A stretch of DNA of 64,000 nucleotides from assembly GCF_037949285.1 (NCBI RefSeq), contig NZ_CP149928.1, forward strand, positions 248,001 through 312,000. The letters run 5' to 3'. Shown one piece after another: positions 8,050 through 43,979 of the stretch. Below the pieces are notes generated by a model. That model was not told the DNA's origin. It did no database searches and saw nothing but the letters and a program-made list of their open reading frames with translations. Source of the stretch: Thioclava sp. GXIMD4216. GTDB taxonomy: Bacteria > Pseudomonadota > Alphaproteobacteria > Rhodobacterales > Rhodobacteraceae. Each line of letters starts with the position of its first letter. Positions within the stretch are counted from its first letter, which is position 1. The position numbers were made by a program, and so were the translations under genes.

Positions 8050-9258
8050 ATGATGCAACAAATATCCAGCTCTCCGAAGCGAATCCGTCAGACCAATATT
8101 CTGGGGGCCTTGCAGGCCTTGCACGAGCACCGCTCGATGAGTCGCGCGGATCTGGCACGGCTCATGGGCCTGAACCGGTCCTCTTCGGGCAAGATCATTG
8201 GTGACATGATCGCGCGGGGGCTTGTCCGCGAGGTCCGCGCCACCGCCACGGCAGAGCCGCGCGCGCAGGCCGGGCGTCCGGGGATCTTGCTGGAGCTGAT
8301 CCCCGAGGCGCTTTGGGTTCTGGGGGTCGAGATTGGTGTCGAGCATATCACAACGGTGCAGGTCGATTTCACCGGCGCGCTGCGCCACTGCCGGACAGAG
8401 CCGTTCGAGGGGGACAGGGTTGGTCCGGCAGATGCGGTGCGCCAGTCGATCGCGCAATTACTTGAAGATTTCGATCCGGCTCTGATGGAGCGCTGTGCGG
8501 GGGTGGGGATCTCGGTTCCGGCCCAGCTGACCACCGAAGGCGACAGCCGCAAGGTCCGCTCGGCGGCCCTGCTGAAATGGGAAAATGTCGACCTGCGGGA
8601 ATTGGCGCTGTCCAGCCTTCCGGAATGTTTTCCAAAGACAATTCCGGTGGCCGTCGAAAATGACGCCAATGCATTTGCCATCGGCACGTCCTATTCTACC
8701 CCCGATGCGGCCAGTGGTGTCACCTTGTTTCTGCTCCTCGAAGCGGGGATTGGCGGCGGCCTTCTGGTCGAGGGAGAGTTGCTGCGGGGGGGGCATGGGC
8801 TGGCGGGCGAGATCGGCCATTTGCATATGCCTGACAGTGTGTTGAACCTGGAGCAAACGATCGGGCGCGCTGCGGTTCTGCGCCGCTTCCGAGAGGTTTC
8901 GGGGCTGGCAGAGGCGGATCTTGCGACATTGGAGCAGGAGGTGCGCGACAGGGTGCCCCGCGCCGTGGAGATCGCAGAGGACTGGGCGCGCGGTCTGGCT
9001 TGGGCGATCGTGCAGGCCAGCCGGTTGATCGATCCCAATCAGGTGGTGCTGGGGGGATCGCTGGCCTTGCTCTATCCATTGATTGCGGCGCGCGTGCTGG
9101 CCCATATTCGCGATCTGCAGGGCGAGGACTTTCCGGTTCCGGCGATTCATCTGAATGACAAGGCGATGGCCGGATCTGCATTCGGGGCGGCCTGTATGAT
9201 GCATAAGGCGATCTTCACAAATGCCGAAGAGCGCCCGGCCATTTTGCTAGACAGTTGA
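8050..9258 (+). CDS. ROK-family transcriptional repressor of the polyol regulon
   Basis: A 402-residue ROK (repressor, ORF, kinase) protein. The N-terminal winged helix (about residues 10-60, with MSRADLARLMGLNRSSSGKI) is followed by a sugar-kinase-like fold: VGISVPAQ, the acid in VENDANAFA, and GGGLLVEG. The cysteine zinc motif of Mlc/NagC (C-x-C-G-x2-G-C) is absent; the region after GEIGHLHMP has no Cys, as in other XylR-like members. The ATG at 8050 follows AAAGGGGA. A GTG at 7999 could extend the protein but has no ribosome site. It sits between the binding-protein gene and the permease operon, with operator-like dyads on both sides. Confidence 0.85.
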   Translation: MMQQISSSPKRIRQTNILGALQALHEHRSMSRADLARLMGLNRSSSGKIIGDMIARGLVREVRATATAEPRAQAGRPGILLELIPEALWVLGVEIGVEHITTVQVDFTGALRHCRTEPFEGDRVGPADAVRQSIAQLLEDFDPALMERCAGVGISVPAQLTTEGDSRKVRSAALLKWENVDLRELALSSLPECFPKTIPVAVENDANAFAIGTSYSTPDAASGVTLFLLLEAGIGGGLLVEGELLRGGHGLAGEIGHLHMPDSVLNLEQTIGRAAVLRRFREVSGLAEADLATLEQEVRDRVPRAVEIAEDWARGLAWAIVQASRLIDPNQVVLGGSLALLYPLIAARVLAHIRDLQGEDFPVPAIHLNDKAMAGSAFGAACMMHKAIFTNAEERPAILLDS

Positions 9259-9286
9259 AACGGAACGTTTTTTAGCATAAAAAATA

Positions 9287-9309
9287 TTTGTTGCTAAAAG
9301 ATGCAAATA
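9287..9309. promoter_or_regulatory. ROK-type operator, copy 2
   Basis: TTTGTTGC, 8 bases, GCAAATA: identical half-sites and spacer to copy 1. It overlaps a likely -10 (TATAGT) upstream of the permease operon, as expected of a repressor site. Confidence 0.65.
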
Positions 9310-9453
9310 TAGTCATGCTACGTCCCGCGAATGGAGGAATTCGCGAGGGGGGAAGGCCGGAGCGACAGATGCGTGGCATCTTGTCGGTCGGTGCGGCATG
9401 CAGAAATCGTCGACCCCTCTATCAGACAGATAAGCCTGAGGAGGACTGCCGCC

Positions 9454-9567
9454 ATGACAGCCTACGCCCCTTGCCATCGGCATTTCGGGTGTCGCGACCG
9501 GCGCGATATAAGATCTTGCTTCTATCCCGCGCGGCACTGGCGCATCCTTGCAGGAGGGATGCGCTAA
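9454..9567 (+). CDS. Possible 37-residue leader peptide upstream of the permease genes
   Basis: The short frame begins MTAYAPCHRHFGCRDRR and ends ILAGGMR. A strong AGGAGG lies about 11 bases before its ATG, and its stop is followed after one base by the permease ATG. The composition is odd (many Cys, His, Arg), with no known relative. It may be a translated leader that couples to the permease start, or chance. Confidence 0.25.
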   Translation: MTAYAPCHRHFGCRDRRDIRSCFYPARHWRILAGGMR

Positions 9568-9568
9568 G

Positions 9569-10441
9569 ATGGCCACGAAGCATTCCCGCGCCGCTGCGAG
9601 GTTGATGATTTCTCCTGCCGTTATTCTTCTTCTCGGCTGGATGATCGTCCCTCTGGCGATGACGCTCTACTTCTCCTTCCTGCGATACAACCTTCTCATG
9701 CCCGGCATGGAAGAATGGACAGGCTTCCTCAATTACGAGTTCTTTGTCACGGATCCTGCCTTTATCACGGCGCTGCTTAACACCGTGTTACTGGTGGTGG
9801 GGGTTCTGGCAATCACCATCGTGGGGGGCATTCTTCTGGCGCTGCTGCTGGACCAGCCCTTCTTCGGGCAGGGGATCGTGCGCATTCTGGTGATCGCGCC
9901 GTTCTTCGTGATGCCCACCGTCTCGGCGCTGGTGTGGAAGAACATGTTCCTCAATCCGGTCAACGGGCTGTTTGCGCATATCGCGCATCTCTTCGGGCTT
10001 CCGGCCTATGATTTTCTGGCTCAGGCGCCGCTGGCCTCGATCATCGGGATCGTCTCGTGGCAATGGCTGCCCTTTGCGACGCTGATCCTGCTGACGGCCC
10101 TGCAATCGCTTGATCAGGAACAGCTGGAAGCGGCCGAGATGGACGGGGCCTCGAAACTGGCGCGGTTTTTCTACATCATGCTGCCGCACCTGTCGCGGGC
10201 GATCACCGTGGTGATCCTGATCCAGACCATCTTCCTGCTGTCGATCTTTGCCGAGATCCTGGTAACCACCAATGGCGGTCCGGGCGTGGCCTCGACCAAC
10301 CTGACCTATATGATCTATGTGCAGTCGCTGCTGCAATTCGATGTCGGCGGCGGCTCGGCGGGCGGTGTCATCGCGATCATTCTGGCCAATATCGTTGCGA
10401 TCTTCCTGATGCGGATGATCGGCAAGAATCTGGAGGCCTGA
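9569..10441 (+). CDS. Sugar-alcohol ABC transporter permease, MalF type (SmoF-like)
   Basis: A 290-residue inner-membrane protein with six predicted membrane spans, the first at about residues 17-40. The EAA loop that docks on the ATPase is EAAEMDGAS followed by a Leu-Pro. It belongs to the MalF/UgpA class of carbohydrate importer permeases. The start at 9569 is preceded by CAGGAGGG at a slightly long spacing. It pairs with the next gene (one base apart) and the ATPase downstream, and with the binding protein encoded beyond the ROK gene. Confidence 0.87.
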   Translation: MATKHSRAAARLMISPAVILLLGWMIVPLAMTLYFSFLRYNLLMPGMEEWTGFLNYEFFVTDPAFITALLNTVLLVVGVLAITIVGGILLALLLDQPFFGQGIVRILVIAPFFVMPTVSALVWKNMFLNPVNGLFAHIAHLFGLPAYDFLAQAPLASIIGIVSWQWLPFATLILLTALQSLDQEQLEAAEMDGASKLARFFYIMLPHLSRAITVVILIQTIFLLSIFAEILVTTNGGPGVASTNLTYMIYVQSLLQFDVGGGSAGGVIAIILANIVAIFLMRMIGKNLEA

Positions 10442-10442
10442 G

Positions 10443-11273
10443 ATGTCCCGTATCGTCACTCCCCGCCGCAAGGCGCTGACCACCGTGCTTGCCTGGGCTG
10501 TGGGCATTGCGATCTTCTTCCCGATCCTGTGGATCTTCATCCTGTCGTTCAAGACGGAAGGGAATGCGATCGCCTCGCCGCTCAAGGTGCTCTTCTCGGG
10601 CTGGACGCTGGAAAGCTACCATACCGTGCTCGAACGCTCGAACTACCCGCTATTCTTCATGAATTCGGTCATCATCTCGGTCGGTTCGACCCTGCTGGCG
10701 CTGATCATCGCGGTGCCCGCCGCCTGGGCGATGGCCTTTGTGCCGGGCCGTCGGACCAAGGATATCCTGATGTGGATGCTGTCCACCAAGATGCTGCCGC
10801 CGGTGGGGGTTCTGGTGCCGATCTACCTGATCTTCCGCGATCTGGGACTGCTGGACAGCCGCATCGGTCTGGTCGTCGTGCTGACGCTGATCAACCTGCC
10901 GATCATCGTCTGGATGCTGTTCACCTATTTCAAGGAGATCCCCGGCGAGATCCTGGAGGCGGCGCGCATGGATGGCGCGGGGCTGAAGGAAGAGGTGCTT
11001 TACGTGCTGACGCCGATGGCGGTCCCGGGCATGGCCTCGACGGTGCTGCTCAACATCATCCTCGCCTGGAACGAGGCCTTCTGGACGCTCAACCTCACGG
11101 CTTCCAAAGCCGCGCCGCTGACGCAGTTCATCGCCTCCTATTCCTCGCCCGAGGGCCTCTTCTACGCAAAACTCTCTGCCGCCTCGATCATGGCCATCGC
11201 GCCGATCCTGATCATGGGCTGGTTCAGCCAGAAACAACTTGTCCGCGGCCTGACCTTCGGCGCGGTGAAATAA
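10443..11273 (+). CDS. Sugar-alcohol ABC transporter permease, MalG type (SmoG-like)
   Basis: A 276-residue permease with six spans, an N-terminal anchor at about 15-35, and the MalG-class EAA loop EAARMDGAG. It is the second half of the heterodimeric channel. Its ATG is one base after the stop of the partner permease (TGAGATG), so it is translationally coupled. The length and the conserved TKMLPPVGVLVPIYL segment agree with SmoG/MtlG. Confidence 0.87.
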   Translation: MSRIVTPRRKALTTVLAWAVGIAIFFPILWIFILSFKTEGNAIASPLKVLFSGWTLESYHTVLERSNYPLFFMNSVIISVGSTLLALIIAVPAAWAMAFVPGRRTKDILMWMLSTKMLPPVGVLVPIYLIFRDLGLLDSRIGLVVVLTLINLPIIVWMLFTYFKEIPGEILEAARMDGAGLKEEVLYVLTPMAVPGMASTVLLNIILAWNEAFWTLNLTASKAAPLTQFIASYSSPEGLFYAKLSAASIMAIAPILIMGWFSQKQLVRGLTFGAVK

Positions 11274-11284
11274 GGACATAAGTC

Positions 11285-12292
11285 ATGGGACAAATCACTC
11301 TGAAGGGCGTGCGCAAGACCTTTGGCGAAGTCGAAGTCATTCCGCCGCTGGATCTGGATATCAAGGACGGCGAATTCGTGGTCTTCGTGGGCCCGTCGGG
11401 CTGCGGCAAATCCACCCTGCTGCGTCTGATCGCGGGGCTCGAGGATCTTTCGGGCGGGCAGATCATGATCGACGGCACGGATGCCACCGAGGCCCCCCCC
11501 GCCAAGCGCGGCCTCGCGATGGTGTTCCAGAGCTACGCGCTTTACCCGCATATGTCGGTGAAGAAAAACATCGCCTTCCCGATGAAGATGGCCGGTGTGC
11601 CCACCGACGAGCAAGAGCGCCGCATCGCATCGGCGGCCGAGGCGCTCAACCTCACCGATTACCTGCACCGCAAGCCCGGCCAGCTCTCGGGCGGCCAGCG
11701 CCAGCGGGTGGCCATCGGGCGGGCTATCGTGCGCGAACCGGCCGCCTTCCTGTTTGACGAGCCGCTCTCGAACCTTGACGCGGCGTTGCGGGTGAACATG
11801 CGCCTCGAGATCTCGGAGCTGCATCAGAAGCTCAAGACCACGATGATCTATGTGACCCATGATCAGGTCGAGGCGATGACCATGGCCGACAAGATCGTGG
11901 TGCTGCGCGCAGGCCGCATCGAGCAGGTGGGCAGCCCGCTCGATCTCTACCGCAACCCCGATAACCGCTTTGTCGCGGGCTTCATCGGCAGCCCCAAGAT
12001 GAACTTCATCGAAGGCGAGCGCGCCGCGGCCCGCGGGGCCCATGCCATCGGCATCCGCCCCGAGCATATCGACCTCTCGACCACGCCGGTCGACGGCGCG
12101 ATCGAGGGTCTGGTTGGCGTCTCCGAGCACCTTGGTTCGGACACCTATGCCCATGTGCAGGTCGAAGGCATCGGCCAGTTCAACGTCCGCGTCTCGGGCG
12201 AGGTCGATGTCCATGCCGGCGACACCGTCTGGCTCACCCCCCAAGAGCATAACATCCACCGCTTCGACGAAAACGGTAAAGCGATCCGGTAA
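11285..12292 (+). CDS. Sugar ABC transporter ATP-binding protein, MalK type (SmoK-like)
   Basis: A 335-residue CUT1-family ATPase. Walker A is GPSGCGKST (about 37-45), the signature is LSGGQRQR, Walker B is [11 protein letters not shown], and the switch His is in [10 protein letters not shown]-terminal TOBE-type regulatory domain (about 240-335) is present, including GIRPEHIDL. It energises the two permeases just upstream. The gap after this gene holds a strong inverted repeat before the catabolic genes. Confidence 0.9.
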
Positions 12293-28084: not shown

Positions 28085-28098
28085 GCAACGGTATCGAA

Positions 28099-28147
28099 CC
28101 ATCACAACGGCTTCCTGGCGTGGTGGGGATATAACCAACGGAGCACG
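28099..28147 (+). ncRNA. SAM/SAH riboswitch upstream of metK
   Basis: The core CACAACGGCTTCCTGGCGTG is the hallmark of the SAM/SAH (SAM-SAH) class, known from Rhodobacterales upstream of metK. The stem CCATCAC (28099-28105) pairs with GTGGTGG (28120-28126). The downstream GGAGCAC (from 28141) supplies the pseudoknot and includes the metK ribosome-binding site, so ligand binding should block translation start. Confidence 0.9.
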
Positions 28148-28153
28148 TCTTTC

Positions 28154-29320
28154 ATGACACGTAAGAACTATATTTTCACCTCCGAGTCGGTCTCCGAAGG
28201 CCACCCGGACAAGGTATGTGATCGCATTTCCGACGCCATTCTGGATGCGTTTCTCTCGGAAGAGAAAAACGCGCGGGTCGCTTGCGAAACCTTCGCCACC
28301 ACCAATCAGGTTGTTGTTGGCGGCGAGGTCGGGCTGACCGACAAAGCCAAACTGGCGCTTTATATGGAAAAGGTTGATGGTCTTGTGCGCGATTGCGTAA
28401 AAGACATCGGCTATGAACAAGACGAGTTCCATTGGGCCACTTTGAAGGTCGCCAATTTCCTGCATCCGCAATCGGCGCATATCGCGCAGGGCGTGGATAA
28501 GGATGGCGCGGGCGATCAGGGGATCATGTTCGGCCATGCGGTCGACGAGACCCCCGAGCTGATGCCGGCGCCTATCCATTACAGCCACGCGATTCTGCGC
28601 CGTCTGGCGGAGGCCCGCAAATCCGGTGCCGAGCCGACCCTGCGGCCCGATGCCAAATCCCAACTCTCGGTGCGCTATGAAAACGGCAAACCGGTCGGGG
28701 TGACCTCGATCGTGCTGTCGACGCAGCATGCAAGCGAAAGCCAGAGCTCGGATGATATCCGCGCGATTGTCGAGCCCTATATCCGCGAAGTCCTGCCCGA
28801 GGGCTGGATCTCGCCCGAGACTGAATGGTGGGTCAACCCGACCGGTACCTTCGTGATCGGGGGCCCCGATGGGGATGCGGGTCTGACAGGGCGCAAGATC
28901 ATCGTGGATACCTATGGCGGCGCGGCCCCGCATGGGGGCGGTGCCTTCTCGGGGAAAGACCCGACCAAGGTGGACCGTTCGGCGGCTTATGCCGCGCGCT
29001 ATCTGGCGAAAAACGTGGTGGCGGCCGGGCTTGCGCGCAAATGCACCATCCAGCTGAGCTATGCGATCGGTGTGGCCAAGCCGCTTTCGGTCTATGTGGA
29101 CACTTTCGGCACCGGTCAGGTGCCGGACGAGGTGATTGAACAGGCGCTGGTGCAATGTATGGACCTGACGCCTCTGGGCATCCGCACCCATCTGGATCTG
29201 TGCAAACCGATCTATGCCCGCACGGCAGCCTATGGTCATTTCGGCCGCGCGCCCGAAGCCGATGGCGGTTTCAGCTGGGAAAAAACGGACCTTGTCGAGG
29301 CGCTCAAGAAGGCGGTTTGA
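28154..29320 (+). CDS. metK: S-adenosylmethionine synthetase
   Basis: A 388-residue MetK, which makes SAM from methionine and ATP. The N-terminal [16 protein letters not shown] block, the [10 protein letters not shown] loop and [19 protein letters not shown] are invariant family features. The start lies 9 bases after GGAG, which is part of the SAM/SAH riboswitch, so the gene is feedback-controlled at translation. A strong terminator follows. In related genomes trmB tends to be the next gene; here four paralogous genes stand between. Confidence 0.97.
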
Positions 29321-29340
29321 TCTTTGGTCGGAAAAGACGC

Positions 29341-29379
29341 TAATAAAACGCGCCTCCAATGTGGGGCGCGTTTTTATTA
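29341..29379 (+). terminator. Rho-independent terminator after metK
   Basis: The arms TAATAAAACGCGCC and GGCGCGTTTTTATTA pair almost fully, with a T-run in the second arm. The next start codon is only 11 bases beyond, with AGGA on the edge of the hairpin. Confidence 0.85.
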
Positions 29380-29389
29380 GGATGATTAC

Positions 29390-30571
29390 ATGATCAACGA
29401 TTTGACCAAGTTGATGGAAGCCATGCGGACGCCGTTTCTCCCGAAGGAGGACATGTCCGCGCAAAAACGGCGTCTGGAGGACGAACAGCGGCTACGGACC
29501 CTGTTTGCAGACAGCTCTCCCGCAGCCAGCAAGGGCCGGTATTCCGCCTTCGAACTGGAACTCCATCACCGCTACCACCGCTATGGCGAGCGGGCGGTCG
29601 CGTTGCTGTCTGCTGTGATTATGACCGATGAAGTCTGCGCGATGCTGTTTCGGGCGGGGCGATACCCCGACATGCCCGAGATCGAGAGCGATACCGCGGA
29701 AAGCTTCCTTGCGGATTTCGAGGCTTGTCTGGCCGAACCGCTCGCGCATCTGTTGTCGCTCGAGCCTGCACCCGATCTGAACTGGCTTCTTTGCGATCTG
29801 TTCGACTGGCCGCAGCGGCCGCAGACAGATCCGCTTGAATTCGCCCCCGAGCGCATCAAACCTCTGGCCGAGCAGTTTATTGCCCGCTTCCCGCGTCACG
29901 GCGGCGAGGCTCTCAGCCATTTCTTCAACCAGTTGCCGGACGAGATTGCGATTGATCTGGTGCTGGATGTCGAGGTGGAAGATGCCGCGCTTGCGTGGCT
30001 TCGGCTCGAACTGGCCGATTTTGCCCTGCTTTACGAAGCATACGAGGCGGAAAACTGCGATCTTCCGGGCTATTGGATCGTGCATCAGAGGCATTGGGCC
30101 CTTTCGCAATTCTGGCCGCGTTCGTCGTCTGGCAGGATGGATCTGCCCGACGATGTGTCCGGCCTGTGGTTCCGCAAGGTGCCGGAGGCGGGCCTGCCTG
30201 CGGCCCATTTCATCCTGTGGCATCTGGTCGAGACGCGGCCCTATTGTGCCGAAATGCAGGTCTCGTCCGAGCACGTTGCCCATCTGGTGGTGCATGACGC
30301 GGACGTTTATCATATGGCGCTCGAGGAGGCCTTTGCCGCCTATGATCCCTCGCGCCCCGAGGAGGAGGCATTTGAGCGGGCCTTTGCCGCGATAGACGCC
30401 CTGCCGCATCCCGAACCTGTGGCCGAACCGGAGGCCGATCCGGTTTCCGTGCCCCCAACACCGGCGGCGCAGTCCAGACCGGATCGCTCCTCCCCCCGCC
30501 TTATCTGGCTGGCCCTGCTGGCCGTAGGCTGCCTCGCCCTGGCGCTGGCGCTTCTGTCCGTGAATTGGTGA
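29390..30571 (+). CDS. Tail-anchored protein of unknown family, paralogue 1 of 4
   Basis: A 393-residue protein I do not recognise. It is predicted to be helical and soluble for about 365 residues, ending in one hydrophobic segment (about 371-390, LIWLALLAVGCLALALALL) and three more residues, so it is probably C-terminally anchored with the bulk in the cytosol. No signal peptide is seen. Shared landmarks with the next three genes are a first helix with a conserved Arg/Phe (R13, F16), LLCDLFDW (133-140), FIARFPRHGGEAL (163-175), WLRLELADFALLYEA (203-217), GLWF (258-261) and a Pro/Ala-rich linker before the membrane. It is nearest to paralogue 2. The start lies just after the metK terminator. 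The function is unknown. Confidence 0.75.
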   Translation: MINDLTKLMEAMRTPFLPKEDMSAQKRRLEDEQRLRTLFADSSPAASKGRYSAFELELHHRYHRYGERAVALLSAVIMTDEVCAMLFRAGRYPDMPEIESDTAESFLADFEACLAEPLAHLLSLEPAPDLNWLLCDLFDWPQRPQTDPLEFAPERIKPLAEQFIARFPRHGGEALSHFFNQLPDEIAIDLVLDVEVEDAALAWLRLELADFALLYEAYEAENCDLPGYWIVHQRHWALSQFWPRSSSGRMDLPDDVSGLWFRKVPEAGLPAAHFILWHLVETRPYCAEMQVSSEHVAHLVVHDADVYHMALEEAFAAYDPSRPEEEAFERAFAAIDALPHPEPVAEPEADPVSVPPTPAAQSRPDRSSPRLIWLALLAVGCLALALALLSVNW

Positions 30572-30575
30572 TCTC

Positions 30576-31781
30576 ATGACCTCATTGAACGCGCTTTTAG
30601 CTGCGAACCGCCATTGTTTCGCGCTACCCGATCCGCATTTCCGCACGGAAACCGAGGCTCTGCTGCGCCAGCTTCTGGATGCGCCCGATCCGGCAGGGGC
30701 GGAGCTGCGCTATACGCCCTTGGAAATTGATTTCGCAAAGAATTTCCGGTCCGAAGGCCAGAAGGCCGCAGCCCTTCTGGCGGCTTTTTTACAAGCGACA
30801 CCCGATTTTGCTTTCCTCTTCCCCCTCGGGCGGCCCGCCGAAGCGCTGGCCGGCACGCCTCCGGCCACTGCAAAAGAGACAAAGAATCTTACATCGGTGT
30901 TCGAGGATCGCTACCTCAGAATGATGGCCTATGCGCTCTATGAGGACACAGAGGGCGACCTCGACAAGATGCTCGCCAATATGTGCGATTGGCCGGCCCC
31001 CGATGATGATTTTTATATTGATGCGTATAAAAATCCCGAATGGCCGCCCGAAGTTGATCGGCTGTGCGAGGAGTTCCGTGCCCTGTTTCCTGAGCACGGC
31101 GGCGAAGCGCTGGATTACTTTTTAGGTGCGTTGTTTCAAAGCGCAGAAGATCCGGACGGCGCGCCTATCGAGGATTCCGCAACCTCTATGGCGGTTCAGG
31201 CGTGGCTCCGGCTGGAACTGGTCGGGCTGGCGGTGCTGTGCGAGGCAATGCGCATCGAAGAGGACGATATTCTGGGCTATTGGCCCGCTGCCTTGTGGGA
31301 ATATAGCCTGCTGGATGTCTGGGTCGGGCCGGTGCTGCCAAAACCCGATGCGCATGATGCGGTTGTCGCGCTGTGGTACGAGCGCGCCGCAGAGATCGGC
31401 ATCCGCCCCGCGCGCGAGATTTTCGGCATGGTGAAGACGACGATGCCTTGGCTCTTTGCCCCCGAGGCCCCTTTGGAGCACGGGCAGATGCCTTTGCAGG
31501 CCGAGCATGCCAAGGCCTATCGCATAGCCTTCGAGGCCGCCGTCGCAGCCTATCGCGGCGCCGACACCCAAGAGGAGGGCCTTGCCAAGGCGCAAGCCGT
31601 GCTCAGCAGCCAGCCCCGCCCCGCCCAGACCAGCTACACCCGCGCCGAGGTCCATAAGGTTGCTGCAAAACCGGCCCCTCGTGCCGTACAGCCTGCTGCA
31701 GGTGGCATGGGCATGGCGTTCATGCTGGGGTTCGCGGTGCTCTGCCTTGTGGCGGCTGGCGTATTTTTGCTGGCGTTCTAA
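30576..31781 (+). CDS. Tail-anchored protein of unknown family, paralogue 2 of 4
   Basis: A 401-residue relative of the preceding gene and spaced only 4 bases from its stop, so probably co-translated. Landmarks: NRHCF at 11-15, KMLANMCDWP (131-140), FRALFPEHGGEALDYF (167-182), WLRLELVGLAVLCEAMRIEE (210-229), ALWYERAAEIGI (265-276). A Pro/Ala/Lys-rich linker (about 345-375) precedes the membrane segment (about 379-400). No catalytic or nucleotide-binding motif was found in it. The shared FP-x-HGGEAL block is identical in paralogue 1. The function is unknown. Confidence 0.75.
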   Translation: MTSLNALLAANRHCFALPDPHFRTETEALLRQLLDAPDPAGAELRYTPLEIDFAKNFRSEGQKAAALLAAFLQATPDFAFLFPLGRPAEALAGTPPATAKETKNLTSVFEDRYLRMMAYALYEDTEGDLDKMLANMCDWPAPDDDFYIDAYKNPEWPPEVDRLCEEFRALFPEHGGEALDYFLGALFQSAEDPDGAPIEDSATSMAVQAWLRLELVGLAVLCEAMRIEEDDILGYWPAALWEYSLLDVWVGPVLPKPDAHDAVVALWYERAAEIGIRPAREIFGMVKTTMPWLFAPEAPLEHGQMPLQAEHAKAYRIAFEAAVAAYRGADTQEEGLAKAQAVLSSQPRPAQTSYTRAEVHKVAAKPAPRAVQPAAGGMGMAFMLGFAVLCLVAAGVFLLAF

Positions 31782-31791
31782 GGAGATCAAA

Positions 31792-32982
31792 GTGATCCGG
31801 CAAAAACCCTTGGAAGAGGTTCTGGAGCAGAATCGCGCGTATTTCGATCTCTACAGGGACGCTGGATTTGAAAAAGACAGATCTCGTGTCAGTCAGCTTT
31901 TCAGTGAAGCGCGACCGACGTATCAAACGGTCGCGCATCCGCAGATAGAGCCCGAGTTCATCGCGCGTATCGCGCCTCTCGGCGCGCGCGGGGTGGATCT
32001 TTTGGCCGCTTGTCTACAGGTGCCTGAATTCGCAAGGCTTGTCAGGTTTGGCATAGACCCGAGGGATGATCGCCAATGGTGCAGCGCCGACAAAGAGCTG
32101 CGTGCGCTTGCGCCATTTCTGGACCGGATGGTGTCGGCGCTTCAAAGGACGCCTGAGCAGTCGTTGAACGATATGCTCTCTGCGGTGTTTAGCTGGACGC
32201 CAGTCGAAATGGTCAAGCCGGACGATACGATGCCGCTCTGGGCCTTGCAACGTGAATTTATCGAGCTTTTCCCTGCAAATGGCGCGCCGCTATTGGGACA
32301 GTTCTACCATATGTATCTACAGGACGGGCAGCAGGAATGTAGTGGCGAACTTCACTGGCGCGCCGAAGTGATCGCCTTTGCGGATTGGTGCCAGAGGATC
32401 GAACTCAATCACTATCACTGGCCGTCCCAATGGGTGCTTCAGCAGTGGCGCTTCAAGTTCATTTCGAAATGTGTCGAAACAGAGCTTGGGCCGGTCGAAA
32501 GCGGGGAAACTCCCAGCCTGTGGTTTGAACTGGCGGAGAATATCGGTTTCGAAGCGGCGGAACAGGTGCTTCACTATATTAAGGAAGATCGCTCCGACCT
32601 TCTTCTCAATAACAAAATGGCCTTCAATACTCCCCTTCGGCTGAAAAGCGGCACTGCACGCCAATATGCTCTTCTTCTAAAACGGGCGGAGCTGGCCTTT
32701 GGTCTTGATCCGCAGGTAGAGAGAGGTCTGGCGCTTGCGCGGTTGATCATCGGCACGCCGACGGTTGAGGATCTTCAGGCGGCACGGATAGTCCCAGCGG
32801 CCAGAAATCCCCAAACCATGCCGCCGCTCGAAAACCGGGCAGCGGATGATGGCTCGAACCAGACCAGTCTGAAGCCAACCGACTTGCTGATCATCCTGCT
32901 TATGCTGGCGGTCGTCTGTGGCACGCTCTACGGGATTGTCGCGATGGTCGCCAAAGTCATTCTGGCTTCGATTATGGCATGA
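31792..32982 (+). CDS. Tail-anchored protein of unknown family, paralogue 3 of 4
   Basis: A 396-residue protein whose GTG start at 31792 has AGGAG right after the previous stop; a longer in-frame reading would overlap paralogue 2 and lacks a site. Landmarks: NRAYF (14-18), LLAACLQVP (70-78), DMLSAVFSW (127-135), FIELFPANGAPLL (156-168), WRAEVIAFADWCQRIEL (189-205), SLWFELAENIGF (242-253). The end is hydrophobic, about 364-391, with ...CGTLYGIVAMVAKVIL. This tail is strongly like that of paralogue 4, so the two form a subgroup. Base composition looks less GC-rich than the surrounding core genes. Confidence 0.75.
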   Translation: MIRQKPLEEVLEQNRAYFDLYRDAGFEKDRSRVSQLFSEARPTYQTVAHPQIEPEFIARIAPLGARGVDLLAACLQVPEFARLVRFGIDPRDDRQWCSADKELRALAPFLDRMVSALQRTPEQSLNDMLSAVFSWTPVEMVKPDDTMPLWALQREFIELFPANGAPLLGQFYHMYLQDGQQECSGELHWRAEVIAFADWCQRIELNHYHWPSQWVLQQWRFKFISKCVETELGPVESGETPSLWFELAENIGFEAAEQVLHYIKEDRSDLLLNNKMAFNTPLRLKSGTARQYALLLKRAELAFGLDPQVERGLALARLIIGTPTVEDLQAARIVPAARNPQTMPPLENRAADDGSNQTSLKPTDLLIILLMLAVVCGTLYGIVAMVAKVILASIMA

Positions 32983-33141
32983 GGATACGCCACCATATTC
33001 CTGTTTTACGTATGGCAGGTTTGTGCGTATGGGGCCTTCCCCGTGCCCATCGGCTGCCGCGTGTTTATAGCCGCTGCGATATTCGTAAACCTTGGAGGAA
33101 TGCGTTGTCATCGTGATAACGTGCCGTTGAATGGACGCACC

Positions 33142-34272
33142 ATGTCTGAAACGCTCATCGAACTTGCACATGCCAATCGTCCGTATTTCGATGCCCATTT
33201 CACCTATCGGTTAGACGCGGATCGTATAATATATCGGGAGAATATATACAGATGGCGCATGGCCTATGCGCATGGTGGCTACCCCGACGATATCGTCGAA
33301 ATCAGCCAGTCAATCTTGGATACGGACCGCGTTGGCATTGATTTGCTTCTGGCGTGTCTACAAGTGCCGTCTTTCTCCGACGTCTTCCTTTGCCCGTCGG
33401 AACTGGCAAGGGGGCGCGTCACAGAGGTCCCCAAAAGGAAGGCCATTGTTGCTATCTATGCCCAAAGGATACGGACCGTTCTCGAAGAAGAACCACGTAG
33501 ATCGCTGCCGGATATGCTGTGTCAGGTTTTCGGTTGGAAACGGATAAAGCAGCCCTCACCATATCTATGGCAACGCGGCGAGGGGCGCGACTTTCTGAAC
33601 CAGTTTATGGCACGTTTCCCAGAACGAGGCACCGAAATTCTGGCTCTTTTTGCGGCGCAGTTCGAGGCGGGGCGTAGCGGAACTGGCATCTCGTATTTAC
33701 GGTTTCGGGCGGAGCTGGCTGGGCTTTTAGCGTGGTGCGAGAGGATCGACCTGAACCGGATGAACTGGCCTGCGCAATGGGTCATGGCGCAGTGGACACC
33801 AGCTTTCAGTGCCTTCGATCTTAAATGCGACATCGGTTCGCCAGAGGCCGAGGAAGCCGCTGATCTGTGGTTTGCTATGGGCGAACGCATAGGCTTTGCG
33901 CCTGCCGCAGATATGTTTCGTTTTGTGCAGGCCCATCGGCCGTGGCTGTTTTTCACGGATAGTATGTGTTCAGATGGTCACCCGAAGCTCAAGATGGGCG
34001 CTGCACCGGAATATATGCAAACGCTCAGACGGGCAGAGCTGGCCTTCTGCTTGGAGGATGATATCTCGAAGGAGCTTTATCGGGCAGAGTGGGCAGTCAC
34101 GCAGCCTTCGGGTCTCGATCTACAGGCTTTGCGCGCAAGCACACGCAATAGCCTGCCGTCCCGTTTTCTGGAATGTGTCATGGCGATTGTCTTCGGTGTG
34201 CTCTTCTGCGCCGCGCTCTACGGCATTGTTGCCGCCATCGCCAAGGCCGTGGTCGCAGCGGCTGGCGCATGA
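33142..34272 (+). CDS. Tail-anchored protein of unknown family, paralogue 4 of 4
   Basis: A 376-residue protein closest to paralogue 3. Landmarks: NRPYF (12-16), LLLACLQVP (68-76), DMLCQVFGW (124-132), FMARFPERGTEIL (155-167), FRAELAGLLAWCERIDL (188-204), DLWFAMGERIGF (241-252) and a C-terminal membrane segment ending in LYGIVAAIAKAVV. The start at 33142 aligns with the N-termini of the other copies. Upstream, GGAGGA abuts an ATG at 33100 and is too close to serve it. The 33210-33260 stretch is notably AT-rich for this genome. The function is unknown. Confidence 0.72.
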   Translation: MSETLIELAHANRPYFDAHFTYRLDADRIIYRENIYRWRMAYAHGGYPDDIVEISQSILDTDRVGIDLLLACLQVPSFSDVFLCPSELARGRVTEVPKRKAIVAIYAQRIRTVLEEEPRRSLPDMLCQVFGWKRIKQPSPYLWQRGEGRDFLNQFMARFPERGTEILALFAAQFEAGRSGTGISYLRFRAELAGLLAWCERIDLNRMNWPAQWVMAQWTPAFSAFDLKCDIGSPEAEEAADLWFAMGERIGFAPAADMFRFVQAHRPWLFFTDSMCSDGHPKLKMGAAPEYMQTLRRAELAFCLEDDISKELYRAEWAVTQPSGLDLQALRASTRNSLPSRFLECVMAIVFGVLFCAALYGIVAAIAKAVVAAAGA

Positions 34273-34303
34273 TGGGCCTTGACCAGAGGGCATGGCATTG
34301 GCT

Positions 34304-35080
34304 ATGCGCGCGGGCATGAGCGATGATATCAAAACCCCGGATCACCCCGAACGCGGCTGGCGCAACTTCTATGGTCGCCGCCACGGACCGACGCTGAACA
34401 AGGCCCAGAAGGATTATCTGGATGAAGACCTCGAGGCTCTGTCTCCGGGGGCGGTGGATTGGGATGTGAACCCCGAGCGCACGCCTATCGACATGGCCAC
34501 CCGTTTCAAGGGCAAGCCGGTCTGGCTTGAGGTGGGCTTTGGCGGTGGCGAGCATATGATCCATATGGCCGAGACCTATCCTGAGGTCGAGATCATCGGC
34601 TGCGAGCCCTATATCAACGGCGTTGCGATGCTTTTGGGCAAGATCCGGCGGATGGCGGTGCAGAATGTCGCGGTCCATCCCGGCGATGCGCGCGATGTGA
34701 TGGATATCCTGCCCGCAGGCAGTATCTCGAAAGCCTTCCTTAACTATCCCGATCCGTGGCCCAAGACCCGCCATCACCGCCGCCGTTTCGTGACGCAGGA
34801 ACATCTGGTGCCTTTGTTCGAGGCGCTGGCCCCCGGGTCCGAATTCCGCATTGCCACCGATATCTGTGACTATGTCCGTCAGGCAGTGCAGGAGGTCCCG
34901 AAGGCGGGCTTTATCCCGCAATTCGAGGTGCCCGCGGCTTTTGATTATGACGATCCGCAGGAAGTCTCGGGCGATTGGGACACGCCTTGGGATGACTGGC
35001 TGTCGACGCGCTATGAGCAGAAGGCTCTGCGCGAAGGCCGCAAGCCGCATTACCTGACCTATCGCAAGCCCGAGGCATAA
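34304..35080 (+). CDS. trmB: tRNA (guanine-N7)-methyltransferase
   Basis: A 258-residue SAM-dependent enzyme that methylates G46 of tRNA. The SAM-binding block is WLEVGFGGGEHM; the catalytic region is NYPDPWPKTRHHRRRF; the ending YEQKALREGRKPHYL is typical. The start is uncertain: ATG codons at 34292, 34304 and 34316 are in frame. AGAGGG directly abuts the first, so 34304 or 34316 is more likely. The gene ends about 70 bases before aroA. In relatives it would be close to metK. Confidence 0.93.
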   Translation: MRAGMSDDIKTPDHPERGWRNFYGRRHGPTLNKAQKDYLDEDLEALSPGAVDWDVNPERTPIDMATRFKGKPVWLEVGFGGGEHMIHMAETYPEVEIIGCEPYINGVAMLLGKIRRMAVQNVAVHPGDARDVMDILPAGSISKAFLNYPDPWPKTRHHRRRFVTQEHLVPLFEALAPGSEFRIATDICDYVRQAVQEVPKAGFIPQFEVPAAFDYDDPQEVSGDWDTPWDDWLSTRYEQKALREGRKPHYLTYRKPEA

Positions 35081-37129: not shown

Positions 37130-37360
37130 ATGAAAAATTGTCTTAAATGGCTCGCCAAGGCTGTAGCCGAAAATTTGTTAAACTGGGCGCAGCTGATTGC
37201 GGCGGTGGTGCTCGTGCTGGTCTTCGGGCCTGAAGACCCTGATCCTCTGACCTTCTTTTTGGCCATTATAGGAGTGACGGTCGCGCTGGCTATCCTGACG
37301 GGTCTGCTTTGGGGCTTTTGTCACAAGCTATGGTCAGCAGGTAAACGCCGAGACAGCTAG
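37130..37360 (+). CDS. Small membrane protein of unknown function
   Basis: A 76-residue protein with two predicted membrane segments (about 17-33 and 43-62), a basic N-terminus MKNCLKWLAKAV and a basic tail. It has no recognised family and no clear ribosome site. It lies 41 bases after cmk on the same strand. The hydrophobic pattern is what supports it as real. Confidence 0.42.
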   Translation: MKNCLKWLAKAVAENLLNWAQLIAAVVLVLVFGPEDPDPLTFFLAIIGVTVALAILTGLLWGFCHKLWSAGKRRDS

Positions 37361-37401
37361 GCCGGATTGCCAGCATATGGCACTTGGGTCATCCTGCCCA
37401 T

Positions 37402-37842
37402 ATGCGCCTGATCCTCCTTCTTTGTCTGCGTGCATCGCCCCTTCGTGCCGAGACGCCCGAACCCCCCGAGGGTTGATGGCCTACCATAGCGATCTGCCGC
37501 GCAGCTTTCCGTTGATCGTGAAGACCCCTCCGGAACGGGATGTCTATATCGAGCTGTCCTCCTCTGCCAGCGGCGCGCTTGTGCTGGGTGCGGACCCTCG
37601 TCCAGCAACCGGCTGAACCGCTTGATTTCGCGGTCGCGGGGATCTCGTGCAAGGAGGGGTGGGTGCCGGATCTGGCCACCCCCGACAGCCGCCGTCCTGT
37701 CGCCATCTGTCCACGCTATCGCCTTGCACGAACGCGGTTCAAGGCCGGTCGTCGCCCGCGCCCGCATGCGCCCGATAAGCGGGAAACAGCCGAATGCGAC
37801 GGAGCATCACATTTGAGGCGTTACAAACGCATCTGCGAGTGA
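37402..37842 (+). pseudogene. Decayed gene for a small secreted protein (frameshifted)
   Basis: Three frame pieces look like parts of one protein. The first, from ATG 37402, is a signal-peptide-like stretch (MRLILLLCLRASPLRAETP) that stops at 37474-37476. The second, in another frame from 37476, reads MAYHSDLPRSFPLIVKTPP then ERDVYIELSSSASG and stops at 37616. The third, back in the first frame, has RTLVQQPAEPLDFAVAG-ISCKEG. Such even, protein-like text split over two frames suggests two frameshifts. The family is not recognised; the pieces together would be roughly 110-150 residues. Sequencing error is an alternative. Confidence 0.38.
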
Positions 37843-41889: not shown

Positions 41890-41965
41890 GCGGTTTTGGC
41901 CAGCCTTGCACAGCGCCAATCTGTGAATAGCCATTGACGGCGCATCTTATTTCGGCAAATCTCCG

Positions 41966-43979
<2,014 letters not shown>

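Follow-up and report, generated by a model that had tools for sequence, protein, structure and literature searches.

Immunity genes of the type VII secretion system (T7SS) have been described as tandem, non-identical paralogues that undergo recombination (PMC9484751), and the type VI secretion system (T6SS) of V. cholerae is accompanied by arrays of orphan immunity genes (PMC5361080). Membrane-located immunity is known as well: TsaI, which provides immunity to TspA, is polytopic, with five predicted transmembrane segments (PMC9484751). We examined a cassette of four consecutive genes, G1 to G4, in the marine alphaproteobacterium Thioclava sp. GXIMD4216. The cassette lies in a stretch of 64,000 nucleotides (the window), which corresponds to positions 248001-312000 of contig C3 (444,349 bases) in a genome of 3.84 Mb. 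G1 to G4 belong to a family that we find in three closely related strains, among which the G1 allele is swapped and G2 is mosaic, a finding that is new to this analysis. We tentatively favor the view that they form an immunity or recognition array.

Four diverged paralogues at a variable site

All pairs among G1 to G4 are homologous (phmmer E 4.7e-10 to 1.6e-47; blastp E 5e-9 to 1e-49). Every pair still matches at E 2.5e-10 or better without the last 45 residues, and none of 1000 shuffled controls (250 per protein, with the tail shuffled apart) gives a match at E <= 10. Chance likeness of hydrophobic tails as the cause of the similarity was rejected on this basis. The tails can also be aligned across the four proteins and share one invariant Cys. 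These results confirm an initial annotation, made from the sequence alone, that had proposed four consecutive paralogues of 393, 401, 396, and 376 residues. The proteins form two sub-pairs, G1/G2 (blastp E 5e-33) and G3/G4 (E 1e-45), with about 28-32% identity within them and local alignments of about 23-26% identity across them. Gene conversion between the paralogues was considered and rejected: there is no long near-identical tract, and the best inter-paralogue nucleotide match is 75% over 87 nucleotides.

The shared landmarks proposed for all four proteins are largely present. FxxxFPx(H/R/N)G, RxE(L/V), LW(F/Y), and the (D/N)x(M/L)L...W block occur in each of them; NRxxF is found in three, and G1 carries MRTPF instead. 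A single hydrophobic segment at the C-terminus, likewise ascribed to the whole set, is borne out by hydropathy for G1 and G2, which terminate directly after it, but not for G3 and G4, whose tail is a longer hydrophobic stretch of about 32-35 residues that includes a Lys. G1, G4, and two of the three G2 alleles have an extra hydrophobic window around residue 65. The hydropathy profiles and the Arg/Lys residues that precede the segment, as judged by eye, are consistent with tail anchoring and a predicted cytosolic location of the bulk of each protein.

The designation as an unrecognized family has held up. No profile in Pfam, NCBIfam, or PADLOC matches G1 to G4 at E <= 1, with no recognizable enzyme domain in Pfam; the best PHROGs match (E 0.018) is not significant, and PDB sequences yield a best E of 0.35 with G2 alone and 0.69 with the family profile. 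A Sel1-like/TPR repeat protein, a label given by eye, was rejected for want of a Pfam match and of any internal repeat by self-hhalign. Kinship with DUF4123 adaptors was also discarded: Pfam detects no DUF4123 in G1 to G4, and the blastp match of G4 to one DUF4123 protein has E 0.002 against 7 sequences and 0.10 against 1150. One segment, at profile positions of about 235-295, is similar to W..KA...G...A repeats in distant genomes, with E values down to 4.5e-8 when only pre-selected open reading frames (ORFs) are scored. Rescoring 16 weak-match loci gave 13 ORFs at E 4.5e-8 to 1e-3 in this very small search set, and all three alignments viewed, among the matches listed for these ORFs, contain W..KA..G..A repeated helices. 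This segment may therefore have a remote link to such repeats.

The source genome holds four copies of the family and no more. Convincing homologues occur only in two Thioclava strains whose flanking DNA is about 99% identical, on replicons recorded as plasmids of GXIMD4215 (p3, 427,962 bases) and FTW29 (437,164 bases), and six-frame searches of contig C3 and GXIMD4215 p3 in their entirety give, beyond four copies each, a next best E of 2.8. At E <= 0.001 the source genome alone matches among 61 relatives, including 15 other Thioclava, and again among 390 genomes of the order. Looser limits, with the source genome counted each time and overlapping genome sets, give 7 of 394 genomes of the taxonomic family at E <= 0.05, and 2 of 385 in the class and 12 of 398 in the phylum at E <= 0.01. 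These extra matches were set aside as single short segments (best E 0.0012). A protein-database search with G2, G4, and one alignment (A2) returned just the strains' own copies; it requires shared 5-residue words, scored about 8000 candidates, and is blind to relatives at 30% identity, as the G2 query did not recover G1. Pattern scans of contigs from GTDB species (0 of 156 and 0 of 167 stretches) and of IMG/VR (0 of 38, 0 of 93, and 0 of 32) reveal no relative, phage records queried with G1 and G4 give nothing for G1 and one chance match for G4 (E 0.3), and tblastn of plasmid records with G2, the GXIMD4215 G1, and G4 detects the two Thioclava records only. This suggests that the source gene pool of these alleles lies outside the collections searched.

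None of the metK-trmB stretches of the 15 other Thioclava genomes contains a relative of G1 to G4. Both flanking genes are visible in 12 of them; in the rest, two stretches (G002 and G004) are without trmB and one contig (G005) ends inside metK. The gap measures 97 bases in G008, the closest genome by metK (97% identical), 185 bases in G011 (metK 93%), and 705-2022 bases in ten others. Six of those ten, for which ORFs are listed, have different genes in the gap, by eye queF-like, DoxX-like, and DMT-transporter-like; the DNA after metK differs from that of G008 too. Because the gaps of other Thioclava hold no relative and vary in length and content, the cassette appears to have been inserted at the species level into a variable site, with a terminator-like hairpin downstream of metK on one side and the trmB start on the other. 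The initial proposal of repeated duplication there gains no support: in the relatives closest by metK the site is empty, and the paralogues may have diverged before they arrived.

Allele exchange among near-identical strains

Around the locus, the source strain is mostly 97-100% identical per 200 bases to GXIMD4215 and FTW29, with a few intervals falling to 89% some kilobases downstream, and we infer that the three strains represent one species. G1 is 98% identical to its FTW29 counterpart and 53-55% identical to that of GXIMD4215. Synonymous divergence (dS) of G1 from GXIMD4215 is 1.15 and nonsynonymous divergence (dN) 0.39, compared with dS of 0.025-0.115 for lnt, metK, trmB, and aroA. Since so much synonymous change is more than mutation in place would produce between strains this close, we infer the import of a diverged allele. 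The breakpoints are sharp: G1 is fully identical through codon 11, identity collapses at codon 12 (position 29423) to 54-77% per 300 bases, and it is restored around codon 9 of G2 (position 30600).

Nowhere else along the aligned portion of the replicon do the strains diverge as strongly as at the cassette. In a comparison of C3 with p3 in 300-base intervals, 1277 of 1481 were aligned, with a median identity of 99.3%; ten fall below 90% and four below 80%. All four of the latter sit on G1 (29501-30700), the last extending into the first 125 bases of G2, while the fifth-lowest is the following stretch of G2 and the sixth-lowest straddles the metK-G1 junction. The ranking covers the aligned part only, as 204 intervals aligned too poorly to score, including C3 at about 107.6-148.6 and 412.9-435 kb. 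Gene by gene, with ORFs picked by a GC-frame rule and 272 of 311 compared (39 skipped), G1 ranks fourth by both dN and dS and first among unflagged ORFs; the three ORFs above it have internal stops in the mapped frame and are read as mis-mapped or false. Within G1, dN/dS stands at about 0.1 for codons 120-200 and at 0.5-0.9 for codons 220-320 (dS is saturated in two intervals around codons 60-120), a pattern that suggests a core under constraint and other stretches with more freedom.

The first third of G2 is mosaic, with GXIMD4215, the source strain, and FTW29 being the odd one out in successive blocks. The 101 informative sites form 19 runs, the longest of 25, a clustering reached in 0 of 20,000 shuffles, and dS rises to 1.0 in one 40-codon block. 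G3 and G4 are free of such mosaicism, at 97-100% per 200 bases apart from a 76-nucleotide deletion in FTW29 G3, which is annotated there as two pieces. G1, G2, and G4 remain open in all three strains. Between the source strain and GXIMD4215, dN/dS is 0.36 for G3 and 0.37 for G4; with extended-start ORFs the values are 0.51 and 0.46, exceeded by about 8-9% of 246 ORFs whose median is 0.08. The earlier suggestion of selection for several versions gains support from the G1 swap to an allele of 53-55% identity and from the mosaic G2, within a comparison of three strains. A second, milder divergence from GXIMD4215 (89%) is located downstream of the cassette, at 37235-37600 of the window.

Gene layout and secretion context

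The gaps between the genes are 4 nucleotides (G1-G2), 10 nucleotides (G2-G3), and, upstream of G4, considerably longer (Table 1). From the two short gaps, G1 to G3 at least look co-transcribed. The core of the hairpin between metK and G1 (29354-29366) is one of 9 terminator-like sites, compared with an average of 5.2 in shuffles, and a simple promoter scan of 29200-34400 gives 0 sigma-70-like sites where shuffles expect 2.0. The GC content of G3 and G4 is 0.555-0.557 vs 0.60-0.65 in the flanking genes.

Table 1 Features of the cassette (positions in the window)
Feature	Position	Strand	Length	Description
G1	29390..30571	+	393 aa	ORF; predicted cytosolic body, Pro-rich linker, C-terminal hydrophobic tail
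G2	30576..31781	+	401 aa	ORF; G1 paralogue (about 30%)
G3	31792..32982	+	396 aa	ORF; GTG start after AAGGAG; G4 paralogue (about 28-32%)
G4	33142..34272	+	376 aa	ORF; about 98% identical in GXIMD4215 and FTW29
Replaced tract G1-G2	29423..30600	no strand		G1 codon 12 to about codon 9 of G2; low identity to GXIMD4215
Mosaic tract in G2	30676..30975	no strand		Private-site runs among three strains
Terminator-like hairpin and T-run	29346..29375	+		Between metK and G1; 14 nt before G1 start
G3-G4 gap	32983..33141	no strand	159 nt	

The cassette is flanked by metK on one side and trmB on the other, and the named neighbors in the gene tables, which may be incomplete, are lnt, metK, trmB, and aroA. 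The GXIMD4215 and FTW29 replicons also bear metK, aroA, rpsA, lnt, and trmB; with these genes aboard, chromid is a fair word for such replicons. Two riboswitches lie in the window: an S-adenosylmethionine/S-adenosylhomocysteine (SAM-SAH) riboswitch at 28096-28145, immediately 5' of metK (Rfam RF01727, 57.2 bits), and a thiamine pyrophosphate (TPP) riboswitch at 41964-42084 (RF00059, 59 bits), in a replicon part where thiC lies downstream in GXIMD4215 and FTW29.

Elsewhere in the source genome there is a T6SS VipB/sheath gene, which occurs in 2 of 16 Thioclava genomes, together with seven DUF4123 loci (contigs C1, C2, C4, and C5) and one PAAR gene (C2). DUF4123 proteins act as effector adaptors. 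Gene annotations on p3 of GXIMD4215 include a VasX toxin, a TNT-related toxin, and DUF4123. The two C3 stretches named above as poorly aligned, both outside the window, are not collinear with p3, and the p3 counterpart of the first (about 36.8-75 kb) is the site of these annotations. On contig C2, a 300-nucleotide stretch is present in four direct copies at 8973-11882 of locus L098, 98% alike and at an exact spacing of 870 nucleotides; the copies lie 15-20 kb from the VipB gene and are probably part of one large repetitive gene.

Candidate functions and comparison with described arrays

Molecules that follow a changing partner would fit the locus because it combines accessory status, tandem paralogy, allele import, mosaicism, and the loss of one member in one strain. 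These traits, together with the VipB gene, the DUF4123 loci, and the toxin annotations on p3, are why we lean, tentatively, toward orphan immunity or kin recognition, with G1 to G4 as a tail-anchored array on the cytosolic face of the inner membrane. Such a cassette would encode paralogous recognition proteins tethered to the inner membrane, for which orphan immunity proteins are the likeliest candidates. At the membrane, the cytosolic body of each would capture one incoming protein, for example a rival toxin delivered by a T6SS, and neutralize it; separate paralogues would cater for separate toxin variants, and recombination would exchange whole alleles (G1) or part-gene blocks (the 5' region of G2) as the local set of toxins shifts. 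It is possible, though doubtful, that the genes represent an undescribed family of tail-anchored recognition proteins, a stand-alone array that swaps whole-gene alleles from an unseen pool and so forms a new molecular class of acquired immunity or kin discrimination that works on the cytosolic side of the inner membrane.

Several observations weigh against an immunity or recognition role. Immunity families commonly have many relatives, and none was found for this one. The comparison base is three strains, and no G1 or G2 interval with finite dS has dN/dS above 1. Only one genome has both a T6SS and the cassette, and this does not amount to an association. The gene tables place no toxin, adaptor, or PAAR gene near the cassette, and contig C3 carries 0 of the 7 DUF4123 matches and not the one PAAR match. 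Nine stretches around the DUF4123, VipB, and PAAR genes, translated as 1150 six-frame segments, contain no relative (best profile E 0.41, best blastp E 0.10), so the cassette is not a copy of the strain's own immunity genes found there. Nor do G1 to G4 significantly match a protein of known structure. Finally, TsaI is polytopic in its published description, and G1 to G4, judged by hydropathy, do not appear to be.

An accessory, patchy, allele-swapping cassette with hydrophobic tails and lower GC in G3 and G4 might also be expected of an anti-phage system, whose four proteins would sense a cytosolic phage component, act on the inner membrane, and diversify under phage escape. We consider this unlikely, as G1 to G4 have no PADLOC match and no recognizable enzyme domain, the gene tables show no named defense gene alongside, and neither the phage records, queried with G1 and G4, nor the IMG/VR scans supplied a relative.

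Alternatively, the cassette could have no function in conflict, with G1 exchanged by chance in a permissive metK-trmB gap. The content and length of this gap do vary in other Thioclava, a single import would be enough for G1 in a set of three strains, G3 has decayed in one of them, and no finite dN/dS exceeds 1. However, G1, G2, and G4 are open in every strain, the breakpoints fall within G1 and G2 rather than between the genes, G2 shows several haplotype blocks alongside the G1 swap, and the core of G1 is under purifying selection; such a neutral history thus appears improbable.

A hetero-oligomeric membrane complex (a scaffold, sensor, or signaling assembly) with G1/G2 and G3/G4 as its two kinds of subunit would account for the co-directional genes, their 4- and 10-nucleotide spacing, the two sub-pairs, and the conserved tails with an invariant Cys, but it too has little likelihood: G3 is broken in FTW29 while G1, G2, and G4 are open there, which makes an obligate four-part assembly less likely, and a swap to about 55% identity in a single subunit would not be expected in a fixed complex.

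If G1 to G4 do form an immunity or recognition array, they would add a class of proteins beyond the families of Pfam, NCBIfam, and PADLOC. The pair of G1 alleles in almost isogenic strains is a ready natural experiment on the outcome of encounters with competitors or phages.

Comparison with published systems places the cassette close to several arrays. The esaG and tipC T7SS arrays of Firmicutes are alike in consisting of tandem, non-identical paralogues with within-gene recombination and variation between close strains (PMC9484751). Compared by description, their copies share blocks of high similarity (PMC9484751), whereas G1 to G4 are only 20-32% identical. Recombination in the cassette involves outside alleles and is not visible between paralogues, and no toxin gene is present at the site, unlike esaG/tipC. 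The tsaI arrays are similar as tandem sets of membrane-bound, strongly diverged immunity proteins (PMC9484751); unlike TsaI, G1 to G4 have a bulky part that looks soluble, followed by a tail at the C-terminus. The rAID islands of gut Bacteroidales also comprise rapidly evolving stand-alone immunity genes (PMC12247911, preprint), but they are recombinase-associated and the proteins studied there contain SUKH domains (PMC12247911), whereas G1 to G4 have no SUKH match in Pfam and the gene tables show no recombinase among their neighbors. A narrow literature search found no account of tail-anchored tandem-paralogue immunity in Rhodobacterales, which is weak evidence.

The orphan arrays of the V. 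cholerae T6SS, strings of toxin-less immunity genes that are horizontally acquired and undergo homologous recombination (PMC5361080), show a pattern like that of the cassette. They sit on the 3' side of T6SS clusters, and their genes correspond to effector-immunity pairs already known (PMC5361080), whereas the cassette is situated between metK and trmB and no pair found matches it. Like orphan arrays, G1 to G4 are non-identical tandem paralogues, and alleles have been exchanged between close strains, here three. Sequence kinship with an effector-linked immunity gene, sought in the four genome copies, the 1150 segments, and the plasmid records, was not found, and for this reason we do not class the cassette as a member of the immunity arrays. 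At the level of genome evolution, it nevertheless appears to work as those arrays do.

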